This document shows positions 9,255 to 64,000 of a stretch of DNA of 64,000 bases, one piece after another. A program made the position numbers and the translations under genes. The notes beneath the pieces are model-generated. The model ran no database searches. It was not told where the DNA came from and saw nothing but the letters and a program-made list of their open reading frames with translations. How positions within the stretch are numbered: the first letter of the stretch is position 1; each line of letters starts with the position of its first letter. Source of the stretch: an uncultured Clostridia bacterium (GTDB taxonomy: Bacteria > Bacillota > Clostridia > Lachnospirales > Lachnospiraceae); the NCBI GenBank assembly GCA_947385955.1, contig CANDNA010000006.1:87345-151344 (forward strand), given 5' to 3'.

Positions 9255-9269
9255 ACCCACCACCCTTTC

Positions 9270-13225: not shown

Positions 13226-13254
13226 GGCGGGCTGCGGCATCTTCCCATGACAGC

Positions 13255-33122: not shown

Positions 33123-33209
33123 GGTGTTTCTCCCCTGAAAAAGAAAAAAGGAAAGCATTCCGCTCTCCATTTTTCTCACCACTCTATTTTATTTTTTCTT
33201 CATATGGCT

Positions 33210-38738: not shown

Positions 38739-38753
38739 GGACATCCCCCCTTT

Positions 38754-44175: not shown

Positions 44176-44435
44176 TTAGTAAACCTCCATTCAAAGAATT
44201 GCTGGCGCACGAAAAAGAACGCACAGGCATACCTGATGAAGTCCAGGATGCTGGTGTCCTCAAAGCGGATCGTCAGAAAGGCATAAACCGCCGTGAACAC
44301 GACAGGCACAAAAAGATGTGCCTGTGTCAGCGCCAGGATGGAGCACAGCGCGCACACGCCGATGATCCCGATGTCCTTAAGCTGCCAGAGCCACAGTGTG
44401 GCCTTTGCTTTTAAATTGTCAGGGTAAATATACAA
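44172..44435 (-). CDS. VirB3/PrgI-like membrane protein
   Basis: A TTG at 44435 preceded by GGAAGGAGGCGG gives 87 residues. Two adjacent hydrophobic helices at about 22-42 and 44-60 are followed by a conserved-looking RFEDTSILDFIRYACAFFF. This is the usual look of PrgI/VirB3-like proteins in Gram-positive conjugation systems, which contact VirB4. The longer upstream frame lacks ribosome-site support. Confidence 0.75.
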   Translation of the reverse strand: MYIYPDNLKAKATLWLWQLKDIGIIGVCALCSILALTQAHLFVPVVFTAVYAFLTIRFEDTSILDFIRYACAFFFVRQQFFEWRFTK

Positions 44436-44601
44436 CTGACCGCCTCCTTCCAAAACTGATAGATATCTGCCCCATGCATGGGTACATGGCTGCGGCCGCC
44501 TGCCATGCGCAGACAGTCCTGCCACGAAAAAACCGCCCTGCCCTTAAGCCCCGGCGGCCTTTTCCTGTATCCGGGTTCCTTTTCCCCGGCATTTCCTCCT
44601 G

Positions 44602-49098: not shown

Positions 49099-49434
49099 CT
49101 ACATCCCAAGGATCTGCCAGATATAGAGCGGCGCGGTCAGCGTGAACACCAGGCAGGCGAACAGGATGGCCGGCGCTGCCCACTCGAACTGCCCGTGCTT
49201 GCGGTAATCAAAATATGCCGTCCCCAGCTTGGCAAAGAAAAACACGGCCAGGATCAGGTCGATGGCGGGGAACACCACGTTGTTCACCACCGTCTTGATC
49301 TGCGCCGAGGCAGTGGTCCATGTCCCCTCGATTGCCCCTGCCACATCTCCGGAAGCAGCGTATGCAGGGACACAGCAGATGCCTGCGGCAAGGACCGCCG
49401 CGCACAGTAAAAGAGCCATTTTCTTCATTTTCAT
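49099..49434 (-). CDS. VirB2-like pilin/membrane protein (DUF3852-like)
   Basis: 111 residues. A Sec signal peptide with A-Y-A-A cleavage near residue 26 is followed by two hydrophobic helices (about 50-70, 87-107) joined by a short basic loop (YFDYRKHGQFEW). This size and layout match VirB2-like subunits and the DUF3852 family of Firmicute elements (family name from memory). Likely a channel or pilus component. Confidence 0.75.
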   Translation of the reverse strand: MKMKKMALLLCAAVLAAGICCVPAYAASGDVAGAIEGTWTTASAQIKTVVNNVVFPAIDLILAVFFFAKLGTAYFDYRKHGQFEWAAPAILFACLVFTLTAPLYIWQILGM

Positions 49435-49534: not shown

Positions 49535-51277
49535 TCAGTCCGGGTTCTGCGGGGCGATATGCCAGTCGCTCCAGAGGTTCCCGCTTATGGTCACGGAATC
49601 CGTCAGGTCCATGGAGAGCATCCCCGCAGGCGTCCAGCAGTCTATGAGCCACGTGTAGGCCGTATATCCCCCGTCCGGGTACCATATGGGCGTGAAGTGG
49701 GTGCGGCGGTGGTAGGTGCTATAGGGGTTTTCCTTGAATTCATGCCCCATGTCATATCCCCCTCCCATGCGCTCCAACAGCCGCCAGTAGCCCTGGTAGC
49801 CGAACTCCGGGAAATAAGTGACCGCGTTCTGCGCCGCCGTGACTGCGGAAGCCTGGCTTGTGCTGACATGGGTATCCACCCTCTCCTGGATGCCGTACCC
49901 GGATTTCAATATCCTGCCGCCTGCCGTGGGCGATTTCCCGTCCGGCGTGATGGCCATGGATGCGGAAAGGCTGGCGGAGTACCGGTCAAAGTCAAACTCC
50001 CACCAGCCGTGGTCGCACCAGTACCCCTCATCCTCGCCAAGCTCGTTATAATCGCTGTGCCATACCCAGTGTGCTTTCCACCAGGGGCGCCATACTCCCC
50101 AGCTGGACGAAGTGGCCTGTCCCTTTGCGGGGATTGGCGCACTGGCAAAAGCGTCATTCCTGTCATCCGCATTGGGGTCCGGGGGAGGGTTCGCATCCAG
50201 GTTCACGATATTTGCCCGGATCGTCCCCTTACTGGCCGAACCGCCGCCCTGGACATCCACTGTGATCGTCATGACCTGCGGCTCCCTGGGCGTCCTCCAG
50301 CGCACCCATGCCAGCTGGCTCTCCCCTTCCGGGTAATAAACACTGCTTACCGTATAGCTGCTCCCTGCGATGCGGAACGTGACGGATACCGGGTGGTCTG
50401 GGTCGCTCTGGCCGCCGCTTACCCATACCGCCGTGATGACCTCCGTGTCGGTTCGGTATTCATAGTCACAGTCGGTCACTACCGGTATCTGCGGCGGCAT
50501 GTCCTTGAAACGCACAATGCCGATGCCAAGGCTGGACCTGATGTCCGCGTTGGACGCCGCCGTGCTCCTGCTCCCGCCCCATGCCGGGAAACCTAGGTCT
50601 GCCGTTTCCAGGAACAGGGCCAGGGGCAGGTTCTTATGCGACAGGGACACCATCTTCCGGCGCAGGCCCCCGCCCAGCATTTCATCATAGAGGGCCGCCT
50701 CCGTGGCCGTGGTGGCGATAAAGGTGCCCTGGAACGTATAGTAGGCGATTGGCTCAATTAACAGCCGGTACTCCCCGTTTGTCAGTACATCAAAATCCAT
50801 CCCTGTCAGGCCGGCAATGCTGCGCACCACCTGCTCATCCGTGAAATAGCTCTTGATGGCGGCGATGCTGCTGTTGCCGCTGGAGCTGACGATCCTGGGC
50901 AGGGCCTGTGAGGGGTTCGTATAGCTGTAGCCGCCCTGCGCCGGGGAAAGCCCTGCGCCGCCGCTGTACTGCAGCTTGCTCACTTTCCCGAAATGGTAAA
51001 CGCTGCCGGGGATGGACTTGTTCGTCAGGTCAATGGGCGTTGTCACCACCGCGTGGTCGCTTGCCCTTACCACGCTCACCCTTACCCCGTCATACCCCGG
51101 CGTCCATTTGTTCTGGCTGGTCCCCTGCCCCATGCCGCCCCCGCCGCCGTCCATGTTCCCCTCCCCTGTCGCATAAACAGGCACGGCGGACAGCAGGGAA
51201 CAGAGCAGGGACAATGCCAGCCGGGAGATGATCCCTTTTCCTGTTTTTCCGCCCTGTTTCAAGAACATCCTTTTCAA
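49535..51277 (-). CDS. Large secreted protein of the transfer operon
   Basis: 580 residues from a TTG at 51277 preceded by GGAAGGAGGTAACGA. A signal peptide (about 1-36, ending VPVYA) leads into a Gly-rich linker (DGGGGGMGQG). Most of the rest is beta-rich: VTFRIAGSSYTVSSVYYPEGESQ and MTITVDVQGGGSASKG look like immunoglobulin-like strands. A Trp-rich stretch (GVWRPWWKAHWVWHSDY) stands out. No sortase motif or C-terminal anchor. Perhaps a surface or pilus-associated protein. Confidence 0.72.
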   Translation of the reverse strand: MKRMFLKQGGKTGKGIISRLALSLLCSLLSAVPVYATGEGNMDGGGGGMGQGTSQNKWTPGYDGVRVSVVRASDHAVVTTPIDLTNKSIPGSVYHFGKVSKLQYSGGAGLSPAQGGYSYTNPSQALPRIVSSSGNSSIAAIKSYFTDEQVVRSIAGLTGMDFDVLTNGEYRLLIEPIAYYTFQGTFIATTATEAALYDEMLGGGLRRKMVSLSHKNLPLALFLETADLGFPAWGGSRSTAASNADIRSSLGIGIVRFKDMPPQIPVVTDCDYEYRTDTEVITAVWVSGGQSDPDHPVSVTFRIAGSSYTVSSVYYPEGESQLAWVRWRTPREPQVMTITVDVQGGGSASKGTIRANIVNLDANPPPDPNADDRNDAFASAPIPAKGQATSSSWGVWRPWWKAHWVWHSDYNELGEDEGYWCDHGWWEFDFDRYSASLSASMAITPDGKSPTAGGRILKSGYGIQERVDTHVSTSQASAVTAAQNAVTYFPEFGYQGYWRLLERMGGGYDMGHEFKENPYSTYHRRTHFTPIWYPDGGYTAYTWLIDCWTPAGMLSMDLTDSVTISGNLWSDWHIAPQNPD

Positions 51278-52104: not shown

Positions 52105-52671
52105 TTAATCCATGCTTCCAATCTTGTTCCCGTTCTCATACATGTCACCTGCCTGGGTTGCGGTGTTTGCACCCAGGTTAGGCACATTATCAAAACCGGG
52201 CAGCCCTCCGCCGCTGTTCCCTCCCCCGTCATCCGCAGGCGGCACATAGGTGTCATGGTCCACAGGCTCCGGTGTCCCCTCCACCTTTGTCCCGTCCGGC
52301 TTTTCTTCCGGGTTGGCCAGGGTTTCTGCATCCGGCTGCTGGGGCTTTTCCACCTCCGGCTGGATGCCCTGTGCAGGCTGTTCGGTCAGTATCGGCGTTT
52401 CGGTTGGCGTTGGTGTTTCTGTCGGTGCAGGCGTTTCTGTCCGTACCGGCTGGATGGTCAGTTCCATGCTTCCCCCTTCATCCCCGCTTTCTTCCGAGGC
52501 ATGGGATGGGTCAACAATGGCCTCCGCCATACCGCTTTCCTTTCCGGGAAGCATATCCTCCCCGGCAGACGGCTTTGCAAACTGCAGGCTGATTGCAGCG
52601 ACCAGCCCTGCGCAGATGGCGATGCCTCCCCCGACTGCCAGCCTTCTCTTTGTCTTTTCTGTCATCTTCAT
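52105..52671 (-). CDS. Membrane-anchored Pro/Thr/Glu-rich protein (DUF6550-like)
   Basis: The start at 52671 (MKMTEKTKRRLAVGGG) follows AAAGGAGGGATTT; 188 residues. One N-terminal membrane helix (about 12-32) is followed by a long disordered extracellular region with TPTPTETP-type repeats. It resembles a family recurring in such loci (DUF6550, from memory). It ends the Tad-like block and may be a surface spacer or pilus accessory protein. Confidence 0.72.
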   Translation of the reverse strand: MKMTEKTKRRLAVGGGIAICAGLVAAISLQFAKPSAGEDMLPGKESGMAEAIVDPSHASEESGDEGGSMELTIQPVRTETPAPTETPTPTETPILTEQPAQGIQPEVEKPQQPDAETLANPEEKPDGTKVEGTPEPVDHDTYVPPADDGGGNSGGGLPGFDNVPNLGANTATQAGDMYENGNKIGSMD

Positions 52672-52769
52672 AGAAATCCCTCCTTTGGTGGATGTTATTA
52701 TTCCGTTCTCTTTTGTGTGGTTTGTACGATACACCATACTACATAGTTCACGCAAAGTCTAGCTTAATT

Positions 52770-53330
52770 TTAGAACACTTCTATATATCCCGCCTGCACT
52801 TTTATGGTGATGTGCATGGAGGAGAGGAGCATACCGCCAAAGCGCACAGGCACCTCCAGCCTGATGACGGCATCCGCCTCAAACCTTGCCGCATTCTGCG
52901 GGTCGGAAGGTGCAAGGGGCGCGTTCCTGACCGTGACGGACAGGCTGTCGATGGCAAACTCCATCGCACCGCCGCCATCCCCTGCATATTTGACATGCCT
53001 GCCGCCGTCCTCCTGTGTCCCAAGGGTAAGGTCAAGAAAGGAATAAATATCCCCTTCATTAATTGCCGCCTCCCATGCACCGCCGCCATCCGGCAGGTAA
53101 TTCCCTGAATATCCCTCCCTTACCCCATGGTACACGCCATAGTAGTTGTCATTGACGGTGGAGATGATGGCATCCTCCGTGGCGTCCCGGACACCTGCGG
53201 CGATCAGCTGCAGGCGGAAATATTCCGATATGCCGCAGAAGATGATGAGCAGCGCCAGGACAGCGGCAATGGCAAGGGGAAAGGACGCTCCCCGCCTGTC
53301 CTTTAATATCTTCCATATCTTTTTAGCCAA
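52770..53330 (-). CDS. TadE-like pseudopilin (possible DUF4320)
   Basis: 186 residues from a TTG at 53330. A short basic start (KDRRGASFP) followed by a hydrophobic helix (LAIAAVLALLIIFCGI) and a polar helix is the usual look of TadE/TadG minor pilins, with possible prepilin cleavage after the RRG. The rest is a beta-rich extracellular domain (SLSVTVRNAPLAPSD, RLEVPVRFGG). It sits at the end of the Tad-like operon beside a second pseudopilin. Confidence 0.73.
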   Translation of the reverse strand: MAKKIWKILKDRRGASFPLAIAAVLALLIIFCGISEYFRLQLIAAGVRDATEDAIISTVNDNYYGVYHGVREGYSGNYLPDGGGAWEAAINEGDIYSFLDLTLGTQEDGGRHVKYAGDGGGAMEFAIDSLSVTVRNAPLAPSDPQNAARFEADAVIRLEVPVRFGGMLLSSMHITIKVQAGYIEVF

Positions 53331-53339
53331 TCCCCCACC

Positions 53340-53762
53340 TCACTTCCAGTACACTTCCGATTTCCCGGTGGCCTGCGCGCGCAGTGTGACCGGGAAAGAG
53401 CCGAAGTTCCCAAAAAGCCCGATATTCTTCTGCAGCGTCAGTGTCACCGTCACCTCCTGGTTCAGCTGGATCTGCCCGCTGTCAGACCATGAGATCTGCG
53501 GGTCGATCCCCGTCTTTTCCCGCAGGACGGCGGCACGCCTGTCGGTCTCAGAGCCTATGCGCCCGGAAATCTCCGCCTCCCGCATCAGTTCCGTGGCAAA
53601 GGTGTCAAGCTGCTGTTTTGCAATGAACACCGGCAGCACCCGCAGGGCCAGCGCCAGCACCAGCATCACGCAGAGCACCAGCACCGCCACATCCACATAC
53701 CCCTCCGCCCGCCGTTCTTTTATGGTACGGTAAAACCATTTTATTAAATCTTTTACCTGCAT
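53340..53762 (-). CDS. TadE-like pseudopilin (DUF4320-like)
   Basis: 140 residues; GGAGGGAAACGG before the start. Basic N-terminus with ERRAEGYVDVAVLVLCVMLVLALALRVL, one hydrophobic helix at about 22-45, then a polar part. The EGYVD(V/T)AV segment is the same as in the small pilin-like protein at 59792, suggesting a shared processing signal. Likely a minor pilin or initiation factor of the Tad-like machine. Confidence 0.75.
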   Translation of the reverse strand: MQVKDLIKWFYRTIKERRAEGYVDVAVLVLCVMLVLALALRVLPVFIAKQQLDTFATELMREAEISGRIGSETDRRAAVLREKTGIDPQISWSDSGQIQLNQEVTVTLTLQKNIGLFGNFGSFPVTLRAQATGKSEVYWK

Positions 53763-53774
53763 CCGTTTCCCTCC

Positions 53775-54647
53775 TTAAAACATCCCGCCGAGGCTCTGGA
53801 GCGCCACATAGCAGATGATCGCCAGATAGGTCAGCAGGAAACATACCAGCATGACAAATGAGAACACCCTGATCTTCGGCGGTATCTTCTGCGCCTGGGC
53901 TTTCAGCCTCTGCAGCTCCATCTGCTTGAAATCATGGGCCAGCATCTGGAAATACACTGCGCTGTCATCCCCCCGCAGCACCCCGATCAGCCCCCTCACC
54001 ACATCCGAGAGCATGGGGGAGTTGAGCCTTGCCTCGAACCGGGTCAGTGCCGCCTCATAGTTGGACGAGCGCATATCCGCCAGCAGGATGTCAAGTTCCC
54101 CTGTCAGGGCCTCGCCCGCATTCCCCCGGAAACGCTCCAGCATGCCAATGACGTTCCTGCTGGCTTTCAGTTCCTGCTCGATGGTCGCCACCATCCTGGG
54201 CAGCTCCCCTTCGATCTCCTCCCGCTTCGCCTTCAGCTGCTCATCCGCTTTTCCCATCTCCTTAAAATACAGCAGGAGGGCAAGGACCACCACGAAGGGC
54301 GACAAAAGCGGCATTAAAAAAAGGCAGGGGACCACGGCCAGGAGCGCTGCGCCCGCTTTCACAAGGGCGTATGACTGGTAGACCTCCGGCTCCATGCCCA
54401 TGCCGCCGGCCTTCAGCACATTTGCCATCCGGCTTTTCTTATATTCATCCATGCGGATGTATTTCGACAGCTTTACCGCCAGGAACATCAGGCAGGCTTC
54501 CACGGTCTTTGCCGCCTTCTTTTCCTGTTTTGCCGTCCCCAGCATGGCCCTGGATGCGCCGGTGGTCGGCAGGCGCAGGAATGCGGCCGCAAGGTAAAAC
54601 AGCCCAAGGGCCAGAAAGATTCCGAATAAAAATAATAATCCTGTCAT
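53775..54647 (-). CDS. tadC: TadC-like inner membrane platform protein
   Basis: 290 residues from the ATG at 54647 (AGGAGGTGACC upstream). T2SSF-type layout: N-terminal helix, a cytosolic region with KSRMANVLKAGGMGMEPEVYQSYALVK, a helix pair at about 105-145, a second cytosolic domain (LPRMVATIEQELKASRNVIGMLERFR) and a C-terminal helix. Tad platforms have two such halves, TadB and TadC, as here. Confidence 0.82.
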   Translation of the reverse strand: MTGLLFLFGIFLALGLFYLAAAFLRLPTTGASRAMLGTAKQEKKAAKTVEACLMFLAVKLSKYIRMDEYKKSRMANVLKAGGMGMEPEVYQSYALVKAGAALLAVVPCLFLMPLLSPFVVVLALLLYFKEMGKADEQLKAKREEIEGELPRMVATIEQELKASRNVIGMLERFRGNAGEALTGELDILLADMRSSNYEAALTRFEARLNSPMLSDVVRGLIGVLRGDDSAVYFQMLAHDFKQMELQRLKAQAQKIPPKIRVFSFVMLVCFLLTYLAIICYVALQSLGGMF

Positions 54648-54652
54648 GCCGG

Positions 54653-55582
54653 TCACCTCCTGTATTCAATTGGCCGGGTCAGCTTCACCACAAAACCTGC
54701 GGACACGAAGATTGCTGCGGCCGTTGCGGACAGGATGAACTGTCCTAACGGCGTGTGCATCAGCACATGGTACCAGTCCTTGTTCAGCAGGTACATCAAA
54801 GGGATGTTGCCCACCACGAAGATGACCATGATTAAAAATTCCTTGCGCGGCTCCGCGATCAGGTATTCCAGTTCCGCGTTCACGTTGCGCATGTCCGATA
54901 ATTTCGCCACGATGGGCGTCAGGGTTGTTTTCAGGCTCCTGTCATGCTGGCAGTCGCTGACGGCGTCGCACCACTCCCGGAACACTTCGTTGTCGATCCT
55001 CCCCCGCATGGTTTTCAGCGCCGCCTCCACATCCGGGCTGACCATCTTGATCTGCATCAGGAAGTCCTTGAACACTTTTGAGACCGGCGGGTTCAGATAT
55101 GCCGTATTTTCCTCCACGGCGGTCACGATGTCCTCCGTCCGCAGGTAGGCCGTGGTGATGACGGACAATGCCGTCTCCAGTTCCGCCGACACGTCACGCT
55201 TATAGTGGCTGGCCGTCAGCTTCACATACCAGAACGGCAGGAACAGGAACCCCACCGCCATGACTGGGGCAAGGAAGAAATTCCCCAGAAGGATGGCAAT
55301 GGAGCCTCCCGTACAGAACAGCGCCAGTGCCGCCGCGCATACCAGGGAAAACCGGCGGCCGCGCCCCGTCATCTCCAGCACGCCCTGGGCCTCCAGTATC
55401 TCCCGCCGCAGGGGGCCGGGCTTCTTCCGCCCGGAGGTTTCCCGGATATCCTCCCTGAGGCTCCCCTTCGGCCTTATCAGAAAGGCAAACAGCCCGTCCG
55501 TGAATTCCGTGGGCTTTAAGCCCAGGATCAAAAAAACGCCGGTGATCAGTCCGGCGCATGCCAACAGCTGGATCGCTGTCAT
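54653..55582 (-). CDS. tadB: TadB-like inner membrane platform protein
   Basis: 309 residues with GGAAGGAGGGGG before the start. Hydrophobic helices at about 5-22, 80-120 and 250-300 enclose a cytosolic T2SSF-like domain with LETALSVITTAYLRTEDIVTAVEENTAYL. Partner of the TadC-like protein. Its first codons overlap the TadA stop by four bases. Confidence 0.8.
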   Translation of the reverse strand: MTAIQLLACAGLITGVFLILGLKPTEFTDGLFAFLIRPKGSLREDIRETSGRKKPGPLRREILEAQGVLEMTGRGRRFSLVCAAALALFCTGGSIAILLGNFFLAPVMAVGFLFLPFWYVKLTASHYKRDVSAELETALSVITTAYLRTEDIVTAVEENTAYLNPPVSKVFKDFLMQIKMVSPDVEAALKTMRGRIDNEVFREWCDAVSDCQHDRSLKTTLTPIVAKLSDMRNVNAELEYLIAEPRKEFLIMVIFVVGNIPLMYLLNKDWYHVLMHTPLGQFILSATAAAIFVSAGFVVKLTRPIEYRR

Positions 55583-57405
55583 AGTACATCCCCCTCCTTC
55601 CTTTCCTCTTTCTGCCCCGGCACTGCCAGGAGCCGCCGGAGCATCTCCTGGGGCATCCCGTTCTCCATCAGGCGGCGGGCCAGCCCCTCCGAGATGGGGT
55701 TCACCTGTTTATGGCTCCCCCTGATGATGAATTTCCCGTTTTCCACCCGGTTCTCCGTGATCTGGTACTGGAACAGTGGGCGGAACTTCCTTGTGCCGTC
55801 CGGCAGGATCTCGCATTCCATGATCTCCATCAGGCGGCGCTCCTTATTTTCAAGCTGTTTGCAGAACGCCACGATGGGGTATGCCTCCGTGACAAATCCC
55901 ATCAGGGTCTCATCCCCCATGTCAACAGCCCTCTTGCAGAGGGACACCATACGCCTGTAAGTGGCATCGCAGCTCATGGAGTGTATGGTGGTGACCACGG
56001 CCACGCCGGTACGGGCGGCTTCCTGCGCCGCATTCGCCTCCGGTCCCCGCATCTCCCCCACCACGATGATGTCCGGGTTGAAACGCAGCGCCATGTCGAG
56101 CAGGGCGATCTGGTCCACCCTCTGGCGCTCATTCTCGCTGTCACGGGTCAGGGTATGGATGACGGAATTGACCACCCTCCCCTCCTTCCTGCGCACCAGC
56201 GCCAGTTCCCTGGAGCCGTTCTCTATGCTGTAGATGCGCTTGCCGTCCGGGATGGTGGTAAGGAGCCACCCAAGGAGGGTGGTCTTGCCGGAACTGGTCG
56301 CCCCCGCCACACACACGGAGATGCCGTACCGGATGCACTCCGCCAGGAAGTCCAGCATCTGCCCTGTGGCTGTGCCGCCCTTTATGAAGTCCTGCTTTTT
56401 CATGCTCTGGGGGTTGACGATACGGATGCTGGCCGCCACGCCCACATCCTCATCCACAATGGGCGTTTTTAATACGGCGATACGGATGTTCTTGGAAAGG
56501 TGCCCAAGCACGCTGGGGCTTGCGTCATCCAGCACCATGCCGGAGACATGCAGCATGCGCCGCACTACGTTGACGGCGTGTTCCGGGCTGTCAAAATGCT
56601 CCGTGAGTTTCTCCGTCACGCCGCCCGCAAACTGCACTTCCACATCATCCCATGCGTTGATGTCGATCTCCTCAATGCCCTCCCCATAGATATATTTTGT
56701 CAGGAAACCGAATTCCGCCATCTCCGAATAGATGGCGGCGATCAGTTCTTCCGTATCCATTCCCGGCACGGATATCCGGTGGTCCTGGATGTATTTGCCC
56801 GCAAACCGCCTGATCTGCGCCCTGGCATCCTCACTTCCCTCCGCTGTGACCAGGCTGCTGTATTCTTTGGAAAGGTATGCCTGAACCTCCTTTAACACCG
56901 AGGGAAAATCCCGCCCCTCTGCATCCGCCTCAAAGAACAGGCCGTGGGTGCGCAGTGTCCTGGCCTCCCTCCTGGGTGCGGCAATGGTTTCCCCGCTTTC
57001 AGGCAGTTCCTCCCCGGAGGGTTCCATATCTCCTGTTGTGATATGCTGTGTATCCTCTGCCACAGATCTGTGTATTTCCTTCGTCCGGTTCCCGGCATCT
57101 CCCCGGATCTGCCTGCTTTCATCTGTATCTGCAGGAGCCGTTTCGTTGCCTGCACCCGTTGCTTCTCCTGTACTTTCAGGGCATCCGTCCGGCTCCATGC
57201 CGAGACAGCCATTTAGCAGGCTGTCCAGATATGCCTCCCCGGTCAGCATTAGAACCGGCTTTTCTGCCCCTGCACCCCCTGTGCTTGTATATCCTTTTCC
57301 TGTATTTTCTGCCTCCGGTTTTCCATGTGCCGCACATCCCACTGCCTGAACACTTTCCCCGGAATCCTCCTGGAATGCCGCCCGGCTCCGTTTTTCCCCT
57401 AACAT
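55579..57405 (-). CDS. tadA: TadA/CpaF-type secretion ATPase
   Basis: 608 residues. The first about 150 are low-complexity and variable; the rest is a CpaF-type type II/IV secretion ATPase: YGEGIEEIDINAWDDVEV, then Walker A GATSSGKTTLL (about residue 365), the Asp box DIIVVGEMRGPEA (Walker B) and the His box VVTTIHSMS. It would power pilus assembly. GGAGGTGTTCGG precedes the ATG. Overlaps the TadZ-like gene. Confidence 0.92.
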   Translation of the reverse strand: MLGEKRSRAAFQEDSGESVQAVGCAAHGKPEAENTGKGYTSTGGAGAEKPVLMLTGEAYLDSLLNGCLGMEPDGCPESTGEATGAGNETAPADTDESRQIRGDAGNRTKEIHRSVAEDTQHITTGDMEPSGEELPESGETIAAPRREARTLRTHGLFFEADAEGRDFPSVLKEVQAYLSKEYSSLVTAEGSEDARAQIRRFAGKYIQDHRISVPGMDTEELIAAIYSEMAEFGFLTKYIYGEGIEEIDINAWDDVEVQFAGGVTEKLTEHFDSPEHAVNVVRRMLHVSGMVLDDASPSVLGHLSKNIRIAVLKTPIVDEDVGVAASIRIVNPQSMKKQDFIKGGTATGQMLDFLAECIRYGISVCVAGATSSGKTTLLGWLLTTIPDGKRIYSIENGSRELALVRRKEGRVVNSVIHTLTRDSENERQRVDQIALLDMALRFNPDIIVVGEMRGPEANAAQEAARTGVAVVTTIHSMSCDATYRRMVSLCKRAVDMGDETLMGFVTEAYPIVAFCKQLENKERRLMEIMECEILPDGTRKFRPLFQYQITENRVENGKFIIRGSHKQVNPISEGLARRLMENGMPQEMLRRLLAVPGQKEERKEGDVL

Positions 57406-58199
57406 CCGAACACCTCCCCCGCGATGGCCTCCAGCGATTTCCGGAACGCCCTGCTGTCCTTCAGCCCCAGCTCCTTAAGCAGGTTCCCCTCCAGTACCTG
57501 GGAGGCAACCTCCCCGGAATGGGGGATCTGGAACGAAACGCTGCCCAGCACCTGCTCCATATGCCCGCTTGCCTCGTTAGGGTACACGTTGCTTGCCACC
57601 TTATACTGTTTCTCCGCATCCCATCTGCTCTCCTTTAACAGGGGCAGCTGGCTGGACAGGTAGCTGATGGATTTTAAGTCGCAGTTTACCATCCGCAGCA
57701 CCGCGTCGGACTTTAACAGGGCGATGGCGGAGAGGATGTCATTGGCGATGGCGCTGCCGCAGTCAATGATGACATAGGGCGCGATGTTCCTTAATGCCTG
57801 CAGCAGTTCCTCCGCCTGGGTCCGCTCATAGGGCGGGTAGGTGTACTCGTTCTCCCCCTTCCGCATGCCGATGATGGCAAGGTGGCGGAACCGCTTATGG
57901 GTGATGCAGTTATGGCGCACCAGGGACTCGGACACATGGCTGGCCGCAAGGATGCTCCCCAGGGAATGTTCTTCCTCCAGGTCCCCCGGCGGGCAGATGC
58001 AGGGGAGCATGGGCGTGTTCATGTCGCATAAGAGCAGCGCCACGTCCTTCTTCTGCTGTGCCAGGTATGCCGCCAGCTTGACGGCCACCGTTGTCTTGCC
58101 GCAGCCGGGGCTTCCCCACACCGCCAGCACCTGGTTTGCCCTTTCCGGCGCTGTGCGGGCATCCTCCCCGCTGCCGCGGCTGAATATGCTGTTTTTCAT
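57399..58199 (-). CDS. TadZ/CpaE-like ParA-family ATPase
   Basis: About 266 residues from 58199. Deviant Walker A VWGSPGCGKTTVAVKLA, YVIIDCGSAI and a final KELGLKDSRAFRKSLEAI put it in the ParA/MinD-like group found as TadZ in pilus loci, which places the machine at a cell pole or site. The N-terminal receiver-like domain of many CpaE proteins is absent. Position upstream of TadA supports the role. Confidence 0.8.
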   Translation of the reverse strand: MKNSIFSRGSGEDARTAPERANQVLAVWGSPGCGKTTVAVKLAAYLAQQKKDVALLLCDMNTPMLPCICPPGDLEEEHSLGSILAASHVSESLVRHNCITHKRFRHLAIIGMRKGENEYTYPPYERTQAEELLQALRNIAPYVIIDCGSAIANDILSAIALLKSDAVLRMVNCDLKSISYLSSQLPLLKESRWDAEKQYKVASNVYPNEASGHMEQVLGSVSFQIPHSGEVASQVLEGNLLKELGLKDSRAFRKSLEAIAGEVFGC

Positions 58200-58211
58200 A
58201 AAATTCAAGAC

Positions 58212-59084
58212 CTATTCCACCCCGCTTCCCGACAATGCTTCCTCCGCTTTCCCGATTTCTTCCTCCATGGACTGGCTGTCTTTGGTTTCCCCGCCGTTTT
58301 CCCCTGTTTCCTGGGGACCGTCTGCGGCTTCCTCCCCGGTTTCTTCCTCCACGGGCGCGTACAGTTCCTCCAGCACGGCCTCCTGCGCCTCAATGAACCT
58401 GGCGGCGTTCCCTGCATCCCCGCGGTATACCAGGGACAGGTGCAGCTTGCCGTCCGCCTCCAGATCCGCCAATACCCTTGACTGCTCCGGCGTGACTAAG
58501 AGCGTCACTGTGGAGGGCAGCTCCCTTTCTGAGTCCTCATCCTCCCGCTCCCCGGTATTGGCGTCATACCCGCTGTTGGCCGTCACCGCAATGACCTCCA
58601 CATACTGGAGTTCGGGCGGGATCACGGTCACCCCCTGCTTTTTATAGTCCGGGGCAATGACGGATACGATGTCGCCGCTCTGCAGCTTCCCGGACAGCCC
58701 GTTGGCAAACGCCTTGACCGTCACGGACATGGCCTGTTTCTCCCCGTTTAAGCTGTAAAGGTAGGCGTTTTCCGCGGCAGGCTCATCCGCGATCTTGGAG
58801 GCGATGATGTAATCCCCCGGCGCAAAATCGGCGGAGGCGTACCTGCCGATGGCGGTTTCAGGGTTGCGCACCACATCCTCCGGCAGGTTGTACCCGCCTA
58901 CCTCCACCGCCTTCACCTGCGCCGCCGTGATCTCATCGCCCTTATTGATTTCCCTGACCACCCGCACGATCTGCGTCTTTTCGCTGATACTTTTATTAAA
59001 CAGCGGCGTGACCGCAAAGCATATGACAAGCGACAGGATGATGCAGGCCACCCCTATGACGATCCTGTTCTTCAAAATCTGCAT
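58212..59084 (-). CDS. cpaB: CpaB/RcpC-like pilus assembly protein (SAF domain)
   Basis: 290 residues. N-terminal membrane helix (about 8-28), then a SAF domain (IVRVVREINKGDEITAAQVKAVEVGG, GRYASADFAPGDYI) and an RcpC-type domain (MSVTVKAFANGLSGKLQSGDIVSVIA, VTLLVTPEQSRVLADLEADGKLHLSLV). The C-terminal 60 residues are very acidic. CpaB-like proteins may modify or stabilise the pilus at the outer face. Confidence 0.85.
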   Translation of the reverse strand: MQILKNRIVIGVACIILSLVICFAVTPLFNKSISEKTQIVRVVREINKGDEITAAQVKAVEVGGYNLPEDVVRNPETAIGRYASADFAPGDYIIASKIADEPAAENAYLYSLNGEKQAMSVTVKAFANGLSGKLQSGDIVSVIAPDYKKQGVTVIPPELQYVEVIAVTANSGYDANTGEREDEDSERELPSTVTLLVTPEQSRVLADLEADGKLHLSLVYRGDAGNAARFIEAQEAVLEELYAPVEEETGEEAADGPQETGENGGETKDSQSMEEEIGKAEEALSGSGVE

Positions 59085-59178
59085 TCTTATACCTCCCTGC
59101 CCGCTCCGGCGGGCATCCTTTCAATATTTGGATGGGACGTCCAGACTGTTCCCTCCTGAAAATATTCTTTTTAGCCGC

Positions 59179-59205
59179 GGGCGGGCCTTCCCTGAAAGCC
59201 CGCCC
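59179..59205. repeat. Intercistronic GC-rich hairpin
   Basis: GGGCGGGC (59179-59186) pairs with GCCCGCCC (59198-59205). It separates the CpaB gene from the genes upstream. A smaller stem, CCCGCTCCGGCGGG, is at about 59100-59113 and recurs exactly near 30144. Confidence 0.55.
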
Positions 59206-59212
59206 CTTTTTA

Positions 59213-59311
59213 CTACCGCACAGCGTATCTTTTTCTGCGGCTGCGCAAGAACGCCGCCAATGCCACAACCGGCACAGCGGCACAAAATGTGATGATGATT
59301 TTCTTTTTCAT
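59213..59311 (-). CDS. Very small membrane protein (32 aa)
   Basis: ATG at 59311 with TGGAGGATGGATC upstream encodes 32 residues: a lysine-rich start, one hydrophobic helix (about 5-22) and an Arg/Lys-rich end. It overlaps the prepilin peptidase stop by four bases. The ribosome site supports expression; role unknown, perhaps a tiny accessory of the pilus system. Confidence 0.5.
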   Translation of the reverse strand: MKKKIIITFCAAVPVVALAAFLRSRRKRYAVR

Positions 59312-59802
59312 ATGATCCATCCTCCAATCTCCATAAAATAGGCTGCGGCTGCCCCTGCGGCCAGGAACGGCCCCGCGGGGTAGGCAGCCCTCCCTGCCCG
59401 CCCCGTGAGCCTCCTTACGCAGGAACAGGTAATCCCGTAAACGATAAAAGCCGACAGCCCCATGACGGAAGCCGCCACACCGCCCGGCAGTCCCAGCACG
59501 ATCCCAATGGCTGCCGCCAGCTTGATGTCCCCGCCGCCGATCCCGGCTGTCCTGCTCCCGGACATCGCCACGATGAGATAGGGCAGCGCCGTAAATGCCC
59601 CGGCAAGGTTCCAGGGGGAAAAGCGCAGCAGGGAAAGCAGTGCAACGGCCGCCTGCAGGCTGTCCGGGATCTCCCTTTTTTTGATGTCCCAAGCGGACAC
59701 CATGACCAGCAGAAAAGGGAACAGCACAGCCTGCAGCAACATCGGTACTGTCATGCCAAAAGCTGCGCCCATTCCCCCGCAGTCTGCGGCATTATCCGGC
59801 AT
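59308..59802 (-). CDS. Prepilin peptidase (A24, CpaA/TadV-like)
   Basis: Up to 164 residues. The two catalytic Asp are in SAWDIKKREIPD and in the GIGGGDIKLAAAIG loop (GxGD). Five hydrophobic helices are visible. It is the short TadV/CpaA form without the N-methyltransferase domain and would process the pilin-like proteins of this locus. The start is uncertain; in-frame alternatives lie near 59772 and 59757. Confidence 0.87.
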   Translation of the reverse strand: MPDNAADCGGMGAAFGMTVPMLLQAVLFPFLLVMVSAWDIKKREIPDSLQAAVALLSLLRFSPWNLAGAFTALPYLIVAMSGSRTAGIGGGDIKLAAAIGIVLGLPGGVAASVMGLSAFIVYGITCSCVRRLTGRAGRAAYPAGPFLAAGAAAAYFMEIGGWII

Positions 59803-60031
59803 AATTGAACATCTGCTGGATGCGGTTTACCAGCGTGGGCAGCACCGTATCCTTGAACAGGGCATACAGTCCTGCCAGCAGGAGTGCGCCCAGCACTACT
59901 GCGATTAAGATTTTTACTGCCGTGTCCACATAGCCCTCCCCGGAACGCTCTGCCAGCTTCCTCTTAGCCTCCATGGTCTTTCCTGCAATAACGCCGCACA
60001 TCCTGTTCATCTGGTTTCTGATTTTTTTCAT
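59792..60031 (-). CDS. Flp-type pilin candidate (DUF6133-like)
   Basis: The start at 60031 (MKKIRNQMNRM) follows GGAGGGACCATC; 79 residues. A basic leader up to ERSGEGYVD is followed by a single hydrophobic helix (TAVKILIAVVLGALLLAGLYALF) and a short polar tail (LPTLVNRIQQMF). This is the organisation of Flp major pilins, with cleavage plausible after the Gly of RSG. It overlaps the prepilin peptidase gene, a strong functional link. Confidence 0.75.
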   Translation of the reverse strand: MKKIRNQMNRMCGVIAGKTMEAKRKLAERSGEGYVDTAVKILIAVVLGALLLAGLYALFKDTVLPTLVNRIQQMFNYAG

Positions 60032-60078: not shown

Positions 60079-60423
60079 TTACATTCCTGCCATCTGCTGG
60101 CCTTCCTGGGGCGCTTCCTCCCCGGCTGCCTCCTGCTGGGCAGGGGGCGCCTGTGCCATCGTGAGCGCCTGCTGGTAGGCGTCCATCACGGCATTGTGGA
60201 GCTGGCTGCGGAACTCTGCAGTCACGGGGAAGCACACCTCCTTGTAACCGTCCACCGTCTTGCGGCTGGGCATGGATACAAACAGGCCGTCCCTGCCGCC
60301 CTCCACCACCTTGATCCCACGCACGGCAAAGCAGCCGTCTATGGTCGCCGAGGCATAGGCCCTCGTCCCGCCCTGCTGTCCGGGCGGATACATGGAATTG
60401 ATCTTGATTTCCAGTGTAGGCAT
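60079..60423 (-). CDS. SpoVG-family protein
   Basis: 114 residues with GAAGGAGG upstream. The SpoVG fold appears as LEIKINSMYPPGQQGG, RAYASATIDGCFAVRGIKVVEGGRDGLFVSMPSRK and YKEVCFPVTAEFR, with an Ala/Gln-rich extension. SpoVG proteins bind DNA or RNA and regulate. It is an element copy, so it may regulate transfer genes. First gene upstream of the Tad block. Confidence 0.87.
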   Translation of the reverse strand: MPTLEIKINSMYPPGQQGGTRAYASATIDGCFAVRGIKVVEGGRDGLFVSMPSRKTVDGYKEVCFPVTAEFRSQLHNAVMDAYQQALTMAQAPPAQQEAAGEEAPQEGQQMAGM

Positions 60424-60511
60424 ATAAAATCCTCCTTCTTTTTCTGCCTTTTATAAGGCATTGATAAAATCTATCCAGCAGACAGGTCTGCAGCATGGAA
60501 AGCCGCGCCTG

Positions 60512-61075
60512 TTAAAGCTGCATTGTCTGGCCCTGGGCCTGCTGCGGGGCGGCAAACTCTATTTCCTGAAAACCGATGCGGTCCACATAATGGAAACTGC
60601 TCCCCCCGCTGTCGTAAAGCTCCAGCACATCGCTCATGGACAGGGAATGCCCCTTATATCCGGCTGGGAGGGCGCTGCCGTCATTCCCGAATTTCCCATA
60701 CAGCGCCTCCAGGTCGTTGGTCTCCACCGCCCCGTCATACACGGCCTGGTAGTTCTCCCGGTCCGGCAGGCCGAACCTTTTGCACATTTCCCCGTACCCG
60801 ATGAATTTCATATATACATCCACATCGGGTTTCAGTTGCCAGACACGGACGTTTTTAAGCCCCTGCCCCGCACAGCTTTCCGCTCCCCCGGCCATGAGGC
60901 GGTCAAACATCCCGTCCATCCATTTGATTTCACTGATATGCCGCTGTCGCTCCAGAAAGCCGGAGAGTTCCTGCCCCCTGAACATGGGATCTACCACGGC
61001 GCAGCCGTCCTCCACCCTGCCGGCCCTGTTCCCGTAAAACAGGATGATCCCGTTATCTATCCGGATTGAATTCAC
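60512..61075 (-). CDS. YodL-domain-like protein
   Basis: 187 residues from a GTG at 61075 with AAGGAGGAAAG upstream. The segment VYMKFIGYGEMCKRFGLPDRENYQAVYDG and the block GHSLSMSDVLELYDSGGSSFHYVDRIGFQEI resemble the YodL domain seen in conjugative elements of gut Firmicutes. Function unknown; perhaps establishment after transfer. Confidence 0.65.
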   Translation of the reverse strand: MNSIRIDNGIILFYGNRAGRVEDGCAVVDPMFRGQELSGFLERQRHISEIKWMDGMFDRLMAGGAESCAGQGLKNVRVWQLKPDVDVYMKFIGYGEMCKRFGLPDRENYQAVYDGAVETNDLEALYGKFGNDGSALPAGYKGHSLSMSDVLELYDSGGSSFHYVDRIGFQEIEFAAPQQAQGQTMQL

Positions 61076-61103
61076 ATCTTTCCTCCTTCTTTTCACACTT
61101 CCC

Positions 61104-61664
61104 TTACGTCATGGTCATCCCCCCGCCCTGCCCCTGCTGGAACTCGACAAGTGCCTGTTCATCCGGATATATGAGTTTTCCGTTTATGACTTCCATCACC
61201 GCAAAATCATCCCGGTCGCAGATCAGCACCCGGTGCTGGTAAGGTTTCTGCATCTCCACATAGTCTGAGACCTCCTGCGGGCTGCACAGCCATACGCCGG
61301 ATGCATACCGCCCGTCCCGCAGGAAACTGTACCCGGAATACTGCGGCTCATTTTCCGACAGATCCTTTGCCCCGGCAGGGCGGATCTGTGAGAGCATCAG
61401 CTTTTCTTCATCCGGCAGAAGTTCCGGCTTTAACGTTCCTGTCACATCCCTGCGCATAAACCGGCAGTTTTCCCCGTTTGTGAGGGAGACAAGGAACACG
61501 CTCCGCCCGATGGGGTTGGGGTTTGCACCGTTCCCTCCCATGCAGAAAAAAAGCTGCCCCGGATGCTCCGGCGGCAGTGCCGCCCTGTCCAGCACCACGA
61601 CTTTCCCTTTCAGGGAGAAATCATACCCGGTCTGGCTGCAGTCATCTCTGGTATATTCACGCAT
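61104..61664 (-). CDS. Hypothetical protein of the establishment block
   Basis: 186 residues; AGGAGGTGTGACGG precedes the ATG. Beta-rich, with KVVVLDRAALP, FFCMGGNGANPNPIGRSVFLVSL and HRVLICDRDDFAVMEVINGKLIYPDEQ. No known domain recognised. It is between the YodL-like and AbrB genes. Confidence 0.68.
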   Translation of the reverse strand: MREYTRDDCSQTGYDFSLKGKVVVLDRAALPPEHPGQLFFCMGGNGANPNPIGRSVFLVSLTNGENCRFMRRDVTGTLKPELLPDEEKLMLSQIRPAGAKDLSENEPQYSGYSFLRDGRYASGVWLCSPQEVSDYVEMQKPYQHRVLICDRDDFAVMEVINGKLIYPDEQALVEFQQGQGGGMTMT

Positions 61665-61668
61665 ACCG

Positions 61669-61947
61669 TCACACCTCCTTCTTCTGGAGCAGCCCGCTCA
61701 GTTCCGCCAGAAACTCCAGCTTTGTGCTGTCCGGCATGGTTTTCAAGGCCGCATGCACATACGCCTCTACCGCCTCCGGCGACTGGTCTCCGGGTTCTAT
61801 CACATCCACCCTGCGGACGGTCACCTTCCCCTCCGACAGCCCAAGCCGCACGATGCCTCCGTATTCCAGGTTTGCCGCCTCCCGCAGCGCCTTGGGGATC
61901 AGCACCCTGCCCTTGCCGTCCACCAGCTTATAGATCGCATTGCCCAT
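61669..61947 (-). CDS. AbrB/SpoVT-type DNA-binding protein
   Basis: 92 residues from 61947 (MGNAIYKLVDGKGRVLIP) with GGAGGAGAC upstream. A swapped-hairpin AbrB domain (GRVLIPKALREAANLEYGGIVRLGLSEGKVTVRR) covers the first half. It is probably a transition-state-type regulator of element genes. Overlaps the methylase gene by 20 bases. Confidence 0.87.
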   Translation of the reverse strand: MGNAIYKLVDGKGRVLIPKALREAANLEYGGIVRLGLSEGKVTVRRVDVIEPGDQSPEAVEAYVHAALKTMPDSTKLEFLAELSGLLQKKEV

Positions 61948-62956
61948 AGTCTCCTCCTTCCTGGGCGGTTCCCATGATTCCATAGCCGCCCTCCCCTTCA
62001 CTGCCGCATAGCCCGAACAAACTCATCTGCATGGGCTGCGCCCTTTCCCGCTCCTTCGGGTCATAATTGGTGATCAGCACCTCCGGGAACTCACAGCCCC
62101 CGTCATAGCGCTGTGCCAGGTTGTTGATGCGGGTCACCGCCGTGATGGTGTACCCGGCGTATAGATCCCGTATGAAATCACAGTCATTGTAGCTGACCAT
62201 CCACTTCCCCCTGCACCCGGACAGCACGTTCCGCAACCTTGCGTGGTCCTCTTTGCGGAACACCACCGCATAATGCCCTTCCGTCTCGTAATAGGGCGGG
62301 TCGCAGTAGAAAAAGGCGCTGTCCCGGTCGTACTGCCGGATCAGCGCCTCAAAGTCCTTATTCTCCACCACCGTGTCCGCAAGCCTGCGGGATGCCTGCC
62401 AGATGGTGTCAAAGCATTTGCGCACGTCAAAGTTCTTGCAGCCGTAAGACGTGCAGCCGCTCCCGTAGCTGTAGCGGATCAGCTTGAAAAATGCCGCCGC
62501 CCGCTTCACATCCGTCACCTCCGCATTCTCCAGCAGTATGGCGCGGATTTCTTCAAAATCAGGCTCCGGCAGGGAAACCTGCGCCAGTTCCAGTTCCTCC
62601 GCAAGGAACGGGGCGTCAAACTCCTGCTTGTCTAAAAACCTGCGGATCACGGCAAACTCATCCCTGCTGTTGACCGGCAGGAAACCGAGTTCCTTAAGGA
62701 ACGCCCATGTCCTGTCCTTCACGCAGCCAAACAGGTTGGCGAGGTTGGAGTTATAGTCGTTGTAGACCTCCATGCACCTGCAGTCAGGCGGTTTCCCAAA
62801 CAGCACCCACCCGCCACCGCCGAACACCTCGATATAGCGGTCAAAACTTACGGGGAACATTGTGTAAATCAGCTTCCGGAGGGCTTTCTTCCCGCCCACC
62901 CATGAGATAAAGCTGTCTATGCCGCACCACCTCCTTTCCCGCGGCGACCCTGTCAT
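61928..62956 (-). CDS. DNA adenine methyltransferase (Dam/D12 class)
   Basis: 342 residues. N6-adenine methylase D12 features: FISWVGGKKALRKLI (SAM-binding FxGGK), YIEVFGGGGWVLFGK, and the catalytic DPPY in FYCDPPYYETEGHY. The last 40 residues are a Gly-rich tail. It could protect the transferred DNA from host restriction. The start overlaps the upstream ArdA-like stop (ATGA) without a clear ribosome site, so it depends on coupling. Confidence 0.9.
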   Translation of the reverse strand: MTGSPRERRWCGIDSFISWVGGKKALRKLIYTMFPVSFDRYIEVFGGGGWVLFGKPPDCRCMEVYNDYNSNLANLFGCVKDRTWAFLKELGFLPVNSRDEFAVIRRFLDKQEFDAPFLAEELELAQVSLPEPDFEEIRAILLENAEVTDVKRAAAFFKLIRYSYGSGCTSYGCKNFDVRKCFDTIWQASRRLADTVVENKDFEALIRQYDRDSAFFYCDPPYYETEGHYAVVFRKEDHARLRNVLSGCRGKWMVSYNDCDFIRDLYAGYTITAVTRINNLAQRYDGGCEFPEVLITNYDPKERERAQPMQMSLFGLCGSEGEGGYGIMGTAQEGGDYGQCDL

Positions 62957-64000
62957 TTCATTTCCATGCCCTGTCCGGGCATCTGCTCCGGTTCTGTATA
63001 CTCATGCACAAACTCCTGCCCGTTCCGGGAAATGGCTCCATACGGGGTGAGTATATAGCCTGCCTGTTCCAGATGCCGCCTCCCATACCCATAAAAATCG
63101 AAACATACAAAAGCAGGATCATTTGTATCAATCCCGGCACTCTGCAGGACATACTCACCATATGCGTCGGTTGAAAGAATATCGGGGCTGTAATCGTAGC
63201 AGCCCAGGTTAGCGGCAATATCCAGTTCCATATTCAGGTCAGGATACTGTTCCAACTCCAGTACCGCCTTATACTTCATAAGCATCATGTCATCCGGTGC
63301 CCCCTGCTGCAGATCCTGCAAACGCTTTGCCAGCGTATTGAGTTTCCCAATGTCCTCATCCCCTGCCAGCTGGTACTGGAACAGCATAACAGCGCTCTTT
63401 GCCTCCGCAATCCAGCATGACTCAAAGGATTCCTCTCCAATGGATACCAGCGCCCACCGTAGGGCCTTTTCGTCTGCGGGCAGTTCCAGCCACACGCCGC
63501 TGTCCGCATCAGGGGCATCCAGCTTTTCTATCCGCAGAGACAGCAGACCCTGATGGTTCTTTCCGCAGGGCGGCAGATGTTCCCCATCATAGAAGTCCTG
63601 CCGGGCGGCAGTGGTTCCCCGGTAAACATAGCCCCTAGAGGTGAATGTTCCCCGGTCGCTGTGCCGCAGTGCCTTCCCGACTTTTGCAGGGTCCAATAAT
63701 TCCGCCACCTCATCCGGCAGGCTCTCCACCAGATCCAGCATACCTTCCTCCATGCAGACCCGCCCAAGGTGGAAGTCATTGGTCACGCCGGGCTGGAATT
63801 CATAATCATCCAGGCAGGCGGAAATATTGACCAATTCTTTCAGGGTAGCTGTTTTCTTCCCCGTTTCTTTCAGATGCAGCTGTAAGGCCCCTTCAAAAAT
63901 CTCTATCTGTATCTCATCCATGCGGCATACGGCATCCGCCAGCAGGTTCAGTTCCCCCAGGGCATTTTTCCCCGAAATGGAATCAGCGTTGAACAGTGCC
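62953..64000 (-). CDS. ArdA-like antirestriction protein (5' end outside window)
   Basis: At least 349 residues; the frame remains open to the window edge, so the ATG at 63921 is internal or an alternative start. Two ArdA-like units can be seen: LDDYEFQPGVTNDFHLGRVCMEEG and DIAANLGCYDYSPDILSTDAYGEYVLQSAGI with DFYGYGRRHLEQAGYILTPYGAI. ArdA proteins mimic bent DNA and inhibit type I restriction and modification complexes. Together with the two methyltransferases it forms a restriction-evasion set. Family assignment by pattern. Confidence 0.68.
   Translation of the reverse strand, partial: ALFNADSISGKNALGELNLLADAVCRMDEIQIEIFEGALQLHLKETGKKTATLKELVNISACLDDYEFQPGVTNDFHLGRVCMEEGMLDLVESLPDEVAELLDPAKVGKALRHSDRGTFTSRGYVYRGTTAARQDFYDGEHLPPCGKNHQGLLSLRIEKLDAPDADSGVWLELPADEKALRWALVSIGEESFESCWIAEAKSAVMLFQYQLAGDEDIGKLNTLAKRLQDLQQGAPDDMMLMKYKAVLELEQYPDLNMELDIAANLGCYDYSPDILSTDAYGEYVLQSAGIDTNDPAFVCFDFYGYGRRHLEQAGYILTPYGAISRNGQEFVHEYTEPEQMPGQGMEMK

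Follow-up and report, generated by a model that had tools for sequence, protein, structure and literature searches.

That type IV pili can take part in Gram-negative mating is already known: the pilus of IncI plasmids helps mating in liquid and that of PAPI-1 is essential, according to the available part of a 2025 review (PMC12857230). The same part names a type IV secretion system (T4SS) of Patescibacteria, with a cluster of VirB2-like pilins, as the sole exception that possibly makes a pilus-like structure in Gram-positives, and the term 'Tad' has no match in it. Also known is the company of tad genes and VirB4 on plasmids of Cutibacterium acnes, whose functional link the authors call unclear in the portion of their paper that is available (PMC5696575). 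We found no account of Tad in a clostridial conjugative element, or of the exchange described below, among titles and the starts of abstracts in the open-licence literature. The stretch analysed here (the window: 64,000 nucleotides, positions 87,345 to 151,344 of contig CANDNA010000006.1 in assembly GCA_947385955.1 of an uncultured Clostridia bacterium; G000:C6:87345-151344 in our numbering, its right edge being the end of contig C6) holds a putative integrative and conjugative element in which a secretin-free Tad (Flp) operon precedes the genes of a T4SS. From the gene content, the ends of the element, the conserved order and strand, the joint inheritance and the occupants of the Tad slot, all directly observed, we predict, with a probability of roughly 0.7, that this operon makes a donor pilus that binds recipients and draws them to the conjugation channel.

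The first-pass annotation had placed a set of Tad genes at 52770..60031, and Pfam matches and intact catalytic motifs, with position and conservation for TadB and the TadE-like protein, confirm them there (Table 1). It also held that they follow the channel genes in the same direction. The direction is right and the order is reversed: because every gene lies on the minus strand, Tad is upstream and is transcribed before the T4SS genes. The order of transcription is ArdA, a Dam-type methylase, an unnamed gene, YodL, SpoVG, DUF6133, TadV, CpaB, TadZ, TadA, TadB, TadC, DUF4320, a TadE-like gene, DUF6550, an unnamed gene of 104 residues, a gene that we call BIG, DUF3852 (VirB2-like), an unnamed gene, TrbL/VirB6, a Dcm-type methylase, a VirB3-like gene, VirB4, amidoligase, GGACT, NlpC/P60, MobP3 relaxase, Toprim and VirD4 (with some further genes interspersed). 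From the Flp-type pilin gene to DUF6550, neighbours overlap or stand at most 14 bp apart, save for one gap of 223 bp; the spacings after DUF6550, down to the VirB2-like gene, are 424, 88 and 100 bp. A scan for promoters and terminators was uninformative (10 promoter-like and 15 terminator-like sites, against shuffle means of 7.4 and 14.0).

The motor ATPase TadA has intact GATSSGKTT, VVGEMR and TIHS motifs (Walker A, Walker B and His-box-like), and both catalytic aspartate motifs of the TadV peptidase are intact as well (WDIKKREIPD and GGGD). We take these motifs, and the Walker A motif of TadZ, to have their usual functional meaning. The N-terminal part of TadA has no counterpart in most relatives. 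The candidate major pilin, DUF6133, has a leader and a hydrophobic stretch, and the motif GEGYVDTAVKIL at its predicted prepilin cleavage site is present in 92 of 108 profile matches. The TadE-like protein has RRGASFPLAIA followed by a hydrophobic stretch, a motif that, as formulated, is present in 52 of 90 matches; it has no match in Pfam or NCBIfam, the TadE model of Pfam included. No secretin (RcpA/CpaC) was found among the open reading frames scanned with Pfam. The secretin is a diderm trait that the available text of one study reports as lost in monoderm Tad systems (PMC6668835), so it is not required of monoderm members. BIG is a candidate tip or wall protein. Its sequence has no match in the PDB, and its Foldseek matches are mostly Ig-like chains that fall on a single Ig/PKD/CARDB-like domain (residues 260-360), with query-length TM-scores of at most 0.16 in the 50 matches shown; for this reason we claim no family for it.

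The Tad genes lie inside the element, because both of its ends were located around them. On the left, homology to sister genomes stops at window position 5349, in the conserved DEPTGALD motif of an ABC-transporter ATPase gene, and the second half of the interrupted gene is on another contig, C9. The two contigs adjoin, because C6 ends with the same 55 bases with which C9 starts. The element measures about 65.8 kb, of which about 58.65 kb are within the window and about 7.2 kb more on C9 (L196, to about position 7209). CGTCCG stands at both junctions, accompanied at one of them by TAAAATG and at the second by CATTTTA, and in three relatives (L188, L189, L190) the ABC-transporter gene is uninterrupted, which gives the empty site. 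With integrase, ends, empty site, relaxase, VirD4 and VirB4 all present, it has the make-up of an integrative and conjugative element. Tad is thus built into it, as had been claimed from the sequence, and boundaries of its own, the alternative named then, were looked for and did not occur.

The key evidence comes from what stands in the place of Tad in related elements. VirB4 surveys gave matches in 22 of 295 genomes of the order and 18 of 391 of the class, the window's own genome being in both, with 53 distinct VirB4 places. We examined 42 of these, 36 close and 6 distant. Close VirB4 proteins (57-100% identity) occupy 40 places, four of which (G606:C69, G606:C70, G652 and one of G498) are outside the examined set, as are the distant places of G210, G257:C93, G229:C21, G095:C14, G053:C18, one of G498 and G442. 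The slot could be read in 27 of the 36 close places: it holds Tad in 18, a sortase with a giant protein in 8, a sortase pilus in 1, and both in none. All 11 genes sought, from TadV to the VirB2-like gene, are present in each of the 18 Tad elements, where the Tad block always stands immediately upstream of the VirB2-like gene. DUF6550 and BIG occur in 18/18 Tad elements and 0/8 sortase-type ones; conversely, the sortase-cassette genes have no match in the 18 Tad elements. Among the distant places, G053C17 and G229C8 are of the sortase type, G114 consists of broken pieces, and G165, G362C33 and G368 have neither; G053 has its sortase-type place on C17, yet a TadA of 53% identity on another contig.

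Seven of the eight sortase-type places belong to a sister clade whose VirB4 is 57-64% identical, the eighth (G474) being at 68%. The sister elements are syntenic as far as they could be read (Dam, VirB2-like, TrbL, VirB3-like, VirB4, NlpC, relaxase, VirD4), and between Dam and VirB2 they have a 391-residue protein, a sortase, sometimes a CHAP protein (4 of the 8 places) and the giant protein. The latter combines a thioester domain at its N terminus, SpaA repeats, and LPxTG[YF] at its C terminus (E-values of 3.3e-20 for the sortase and 1.3e-15 for the thioester domain, TED); all eight giants have LPxTG[YF] at the end and a thioester-type [YF]C.. motif. No TadA was found in the sortase-type genomes at E<=1e-20 (at E<=1e-60 for G474). 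The single sortase pilus is in G338, an element nested in the Tad clade and devoid of Tad: a thioester/SpaA protein, an LPxTG pilin and two sortases are encoded directly upstream of its ArdA and Dam genes. As a separate observation, the giants (L086:9033-14534 and seven others) stop right at LPxTG[YF]; that no hydrophobic tail follows is unusual for a sortase substrate.

In a VirB4 tree of 39 rows (6 of 45 excluded as short, partial or remnant; long outgroup branches flagged), a single clade (support 100/99) takes in all 20 Tad rows, together with G338 and three rows that were not read. A minimum of two changes on this tree accounts for the Tad and sortase states, and two distant outgroup rows are of the sortase type. 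The likeliest reading is that Tad replaced a sortase cassette once and was itself replaced once. The substitution is also the main argument for a role in mating. The thioester adhesin TIEpLS20 is described as needed for pLS20 conjugation, by about 1,000-fold in liquid and 15-fold on solid medium (PMC8092201, available part), and since Tad fills the slot of a thioester/SpaA protein it probably does comparable work. Pilus and thioester adhesin are best read as alternative mating-pair modules on one conjugation chassis, i.e., as an exchangeable module for cell contact.

The neighbourhood is widely conserved. Scanning GTDB contigs with TadA gave 163 relatives, of which the best 80 were taken as loci, many ending at contig edges. 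As far as the contigs reach, the module keeps its order and single strand across these best 80 of 163, where TadA has as neighbours TadB (80), TadZ (79), CpaB (77), TadV (75), TadC (74), Flp (72), DUF4320, TadE and DUF6550 (68 each) and BIG (67). Such recurrence is not chance. Linkage to VirB4, a survey suggested by the first-pass annotation, was counted in 59 of the 80 loci, chosen by hand, from 58 genomes (TadA at >=60% and VirB4 at >=55% identity). Among the 75 close TadA copies, 47 share their contig with a close VirB4 no more than 45 kb away, and this VirB4 lies downstream on the same strand, at 8-29 kb, in 47/47. The count leaves aside eight further TadA rows (seven at 35-47% and G716:C84, a 65% fragment) as well as various VirB4 fragments and distant rows; if the G716:C84 fragment is included, linkage becomes 47/76. 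More distant pairs (TadA 42-52%, VirB4 26-29%) share contig and strand at 6-13 kb in 4 of 12 TadA copies. These counts rule out a host-chromosomal Tad system that merely lies near an element. They are not independent of those based on VirB4, because several genomes overlap (for example G301/G693 and G186/G702).

Tad has also been inherited jointly with the core of the element. In the same 17 elements, distances for TadA, TadB, TadC, CpaB and BIG correlate with those for TrbL and VirB4 at r of 0.65-0.92 (TadB-VirB4 0.82, TadC-VirB4 0.84, CpaB-TrbL 0.84, BIG-TrbL 0.92; TrbL-VirB4 0.63). On subsets, Dam (-0.02 to 0.18, n=10), NlpC (0.19-0.33, n=16) and VirD4 (0.04-0.24, n=10) show no tracking, and the VirB2-like protein correlates weakly with everything (0.43-0.57). 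Larger sets, which contain some duplicate records, gave 0.72 for TadA-TrbL (n=56), 0.85 for TadA-VirB4 (n=23) and 0.87 for BIG-TrbL (n=56), with 0 of 2000 permutations as high for each pair. Co-divergence alone does not prove a joint function.

Tad is found with other T4SS types as well. In Hungatella hathewayi, the Tad-DUF6550-BIG block is followed downstream, on the same strand, by a VirD4 of the CD1115 family (473 bits, about 24 kb from TadA) and a VirB4 of the CD1110 family (790 bits, about 30 kb), both over their cut-offs. In the plasmids pTPHSE1 and pCd5_2, Tad and BIG stand upstream of a MobP2 relaxase gene and transfer genes of the pLS20 type, and G095 has both in a MobP3 element with a different gene order. 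Another plasmid with pLS20-type transfer genes, p_TW11, encodes a class B sortase and, ahead of VirD4, a SpaA protein (6.3e-43); the 25 kb that were read, out of 42 kb, gave no Tad match. We think the odds better than even, on this evidence, that clostridial machines carry interchangeable grappling modules (a covalent, sortase-held thioester adhesin, a thioester-tipped sortase pilus, or a motor-driven Tad pilus tipped by secreted BIG), and that the Tad version is a dedicated, retractile Gram-positive mating pilus present in at least three T4SS types.

Two side observations concern these loci. MOB-suite, as given in PLSDB, classes pTPHSE1 (L197) and pCd5_2 (L198/L200) as 'non-mobilizable' despite their MobP2, VirD4 and VirB4-like genes. 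A PAPS-reductase-like gene stands near Tad in three T4SS types (L196:3289-4173, L061:17860-18741, L200:2929-3429).

A mechanism can be proposed from these parts. The A24 peptidase would trim DUF6133 as the major pilin and DUF4320 and the TadE-like protein as minor ones; TadA, on a TadB/TadC platform, would polymerise and retract the fibre, and a single ATPase, CpaF, is described as driving both extension and retraction in Caulobacter (PMC11300603, available part). CpaB and DUF6550 may guide the fibre through the wall, with BIG most likely as the tip or recipient-binding part. Retraction would pull the cells together, upon which the T4SS would pass the relaxase-bound DNA.

Several observations weigh against this proposal. 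Prepilins carry Glu at position +5. The residue is Asp in two of the pilin-like proteins (GEGYVD in DUF6133, against the prepilin-type G/XXXXE) and absent from the third. Nine of the 36 slots were unreadable (G179C33, the third G301 copy, G262, G573, G606C10, G406, G589 and two pieces in G440C32), besides the four close places outside the set. One of the unreadable places, G179, has a VirB4 91% identical and no TadA at E<=1e-20, its contig beginning just upstream. In G123 and G440, which are 2 of the 18 Tad elements, the TadA gene is broken into two frames, so some copies may be dead. In G165, a relative of BIG lies by the distant VirB4 with no visible Tad, the contig ending about 1.7 kb beyond. 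Of the 75 close TadA copies, 28 have no close VirB4 inside 45 kb: 20 are in genomes with one elsewhere and 8 in seven genomes without one, among them H. hathewayi with its other T4SS type; the remaining six genomes have Tad, and no close VirB4 was found in them. MobL (0.63-0.89), Toprim (0.64-0.86), amidoligase (0.58-0.91) and RHH (0.53-0.71) co-diverge too, and in the larger set TadA-Dam, at an r of 0.37 (n=60), is also above all permutations; joint divergence is not special to Tad, since it is expected of any co-inherited block. Finally, pBS72, of the pLS20 type, has a CpaF/VirB11-like ATPase and lacks the remainder of this Tad set. In the region 11987-14987 of that plasmid (L201), the ATPase (T2SSE 1.2e-24) lies between two membrane proteins; a likeness of these to TadC and TadB, noted by eye, was not supported by profiles or Pfam.

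If the pilus were host-cell cargo, a set of fitness genes for adhesion, biofilm formation or colonisation with no part in mating, one would expect it to come and go and to sit anywhere. It is instead directly upstream of the VirB2-like gene in every Tad element of the VirB4 survey, tracks the channel, and gives way, in other elements, to a cassette with a thioester-adhesin relative that serves conjugation. In the available part of PMC5696575, Tad is described as acting in gut colonisation in Bifidobacterium breve, and the C. acnes tad plasmid is considered in connection with adhesion. We nevertheless consider cargo unlikely. Help in colonisation, one of the roles offered by the first-pass annotation, loses weight from the hosts of like elements, which include Desulfosporosinus, Acidaminobacter and Sedimentibacter, and Dethiobacter records. 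These are mostly environmental genera. The mating pilus that it also offered gains indirect support, with the function inferred, from the slot shared with the sortase/thioester cassette and from co-inheritance with the channel.

We give an equally low chance to the idea that the Tad proteins are parts of the channel, with TadA as a VirB11-type ATPase and, in place of a long filament, a short pseudopilus that would open or span the wall. In NCBIfam, TadA scores 117 bits against TIGR03819 ('TadA family conjugal transfer-associated ATPase') and 112 bits against VirB11, almost equal values that are both below cut-off; PAPI-1 is described as pairing a VirB4/VirD4 system with a type IV pilus (PMC12857230, available part); and a virB11/CpaF-like gene is in the transfer operons of pBS72 and pLS20, the latter said to have virB11 in the accessible text of PMC11730352. 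Against this, sister elements with the same VirB2-like, TrbL, VirB3-like and VirB4 proteins are in genomes without TadA at E<=1e-20, so this channel type does not need it, and a set that includes pilin, peptidase, CpaB and TadZ is that of a pilus operon. A competence-like apparatus that takes up or releases DNA or proteins, mobile by happenstance, is very improbable: the tad locus is reported as needed for transformation of Micrococcus luteus (PMC5696575, available part), but no competence gene was found among the open reading frames scanned, and the linkage and the slot exchange point to mating. The donor mating pilus thus remains our preferred reading.

Table 1. Features of the element in the window, with positions, strand and basis of the assignment (values in exponent form are E-values).
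Feature	Position	Strand	Basis or remark
Left element end	5344..5350	.	CGTCCG at 5344, element from 5350; inside ABC-transporter ATPase gene
Integration module: DUF6262 protein and three tyrosine recombinases (506, 613, 371 aa)	5644..10385	-	Pfam
VirD4 coupling protein, CD1115 family	26821..28857	-	T4SS-DNA_transf 1.1e-46; NF045973 260 bits, over cut-off
MobP3/MobL relaxase with Sel1 repeats	30207..33182	-	MobP3 1.8e-114, over cut-off; MobL 6.8e-33
NlpC/P60 wall hydrolase	37725..38744	-	1.5e-23; VirB1-type role inferred
VirB4 ATPase	40536..42380	-	P-loop_TraG 5.1e-8; NCBIfam VirB4 models below cut-off
VirB3-like	44172..44525	-	Position and hydrophobic profile; TraL 0.059, below cut-off
TrbL/VirB6	47694..48593	-	TrbL_5 1.7e-148
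DUF3852, VirB2-like small membrane protein	49099..49434	-	4.5e-48; VirB2 likeness by eye
BIG, secreted 580-aa protein	49535..51277	-	Tad-linked; predicted Ig-like beta domains
DUF6550, Pro/Thr-rich, one N-terminal hydrophobic stretch	52105..52755	-	7.3e-8; Tad-linked
TadE-like pseudopilin, 186 aa	52770..53330	-	Position and conservation (68/80 relatives)
DUF4320, pseudopilin-like	53340..53762	-	Pfam 8e-38; motif [GA]EGY[VI]DV in 83/90 matches
TadC	53775..54656	-	T2SSF 0.0016, below Pfam cut-off; in 74/80 relatives
TadB	54653..55582	-	Without Pfam or NCBIfam name; position and conservation (80/80 relatives)
TadA/CpaF motor ATPase, 608 aa	55579..57405	-	T2SSE 2.3e-23 (Pfam)
TadZ, ParA/MinD-like ATPase	57399..58208	-	AAA_31 1.4e-8, also CbiA; Walker A GSPGCGKT
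CpaB/RcpC	58212..59084	-	RcpC/CpaB 3.4e-18 and SAF 9.3e-7 (Pfam)
TadV-type A24 prepilin peptidase	59308..59802	-	Peptidase_A24 3.3e-11 (Pfam)
Flp-type major pilin candidate (DUF6133), 84 aa	59792..60046	-	Pfam DUF6133 1.4e-32
Upstream genes SpoVG (60079-60423), YodL, Dam-type methylase, ArdA	60079..63921	-	SpoVG 1.2e-24

Of the remaining genes, the three tyrosine recombinases with DUF6262 are, we presume, reminiscent of Tn554 or of recombinase-in-trio modules. The part on C9 has ArdA-like, PAPS-reductase and Imm51 matches, with no recombinase among the six proteins scanned there. The VirB3-like gene between TrbL and VirB4 is conserved in relatives. The relaxase is fused to about nine Sel1 repeats, and amidoligase and gamma-glutamylcyclotransferase-like genes (38754-40412) recur beside VirB4 or the relaxase in Tad and sortase elements alike. 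The left part of the element also has a GHKL histidine kinase and a LytTR response regulator (21662-23808), presumably a pair of the peptide-quorum type, and a PemK-like toxin gene lies at 11187-12452, close to a pemK RNA element. A tRNA-Arg called by ARAGORN at 60975-61066 was considered as an attachment site and rejected: it lies inside YodL on the same strand, Rfam shows no tRNA there, and the call is very likely false.

Gram-positive conjugation is said to do without a filament, and a T4SS lineage with Tad across many Clostridia would change this picture. The Tad elements and their thioester sisters offer a natural comparison of two routes to the mating pair; how Gram-positive donors find recipients would become testable by single gene deletions, and the unnamed families DUF6133, DUF4320, DUF6550 and BIG would have a predicted role.

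Among known systems, R64 (IncI) and PAPI-1 resemble the present one in having, on the same element, a type IV filament operon unrelated to the pilus of the T4SS itself, which in their case is used in mating. They differ in their diderm hosts; here the families are of the Tad type, no secretin was found, and the carriers are mostly Clostridia. The tad plasmids of C. acnes share with it a Gram-positive host and the position of tad beside VirB4- and TcpC-like genes; as far as the available account goes, theirs is an actinobacterial plasmid with an FtsK/TraB-like protein, and no slot exchange is mentioned (PMC5696575). The Patescibacteria system has the VirB2-like pilins of the T4SS itself and no type IV filament operon, and the available part of the review does not state a transfer of DNA from donor to recipient (PMC12857230). 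TIEpLS20, encoded in the conjugation operon, acts on the donor side and is needed for efficient mating, and the Tad slot of the sister elements holds a thioester/SpaA protein; it is a single adhesin, not a motor-driven pilus, and pLS20 is described in the accessible text as having no sortase gene (PMC8092201), whereas the sister elements have one. The Tad/Flp pili of monoderms are alike in gene content, with TadA, TadB, TadC, TadZ, CpaB, TadV and Flp and without a secretin (PMC6668835, available part); unlike these, the clade described here is linked to a T4SS and brings DUF6550 and BIG with it.

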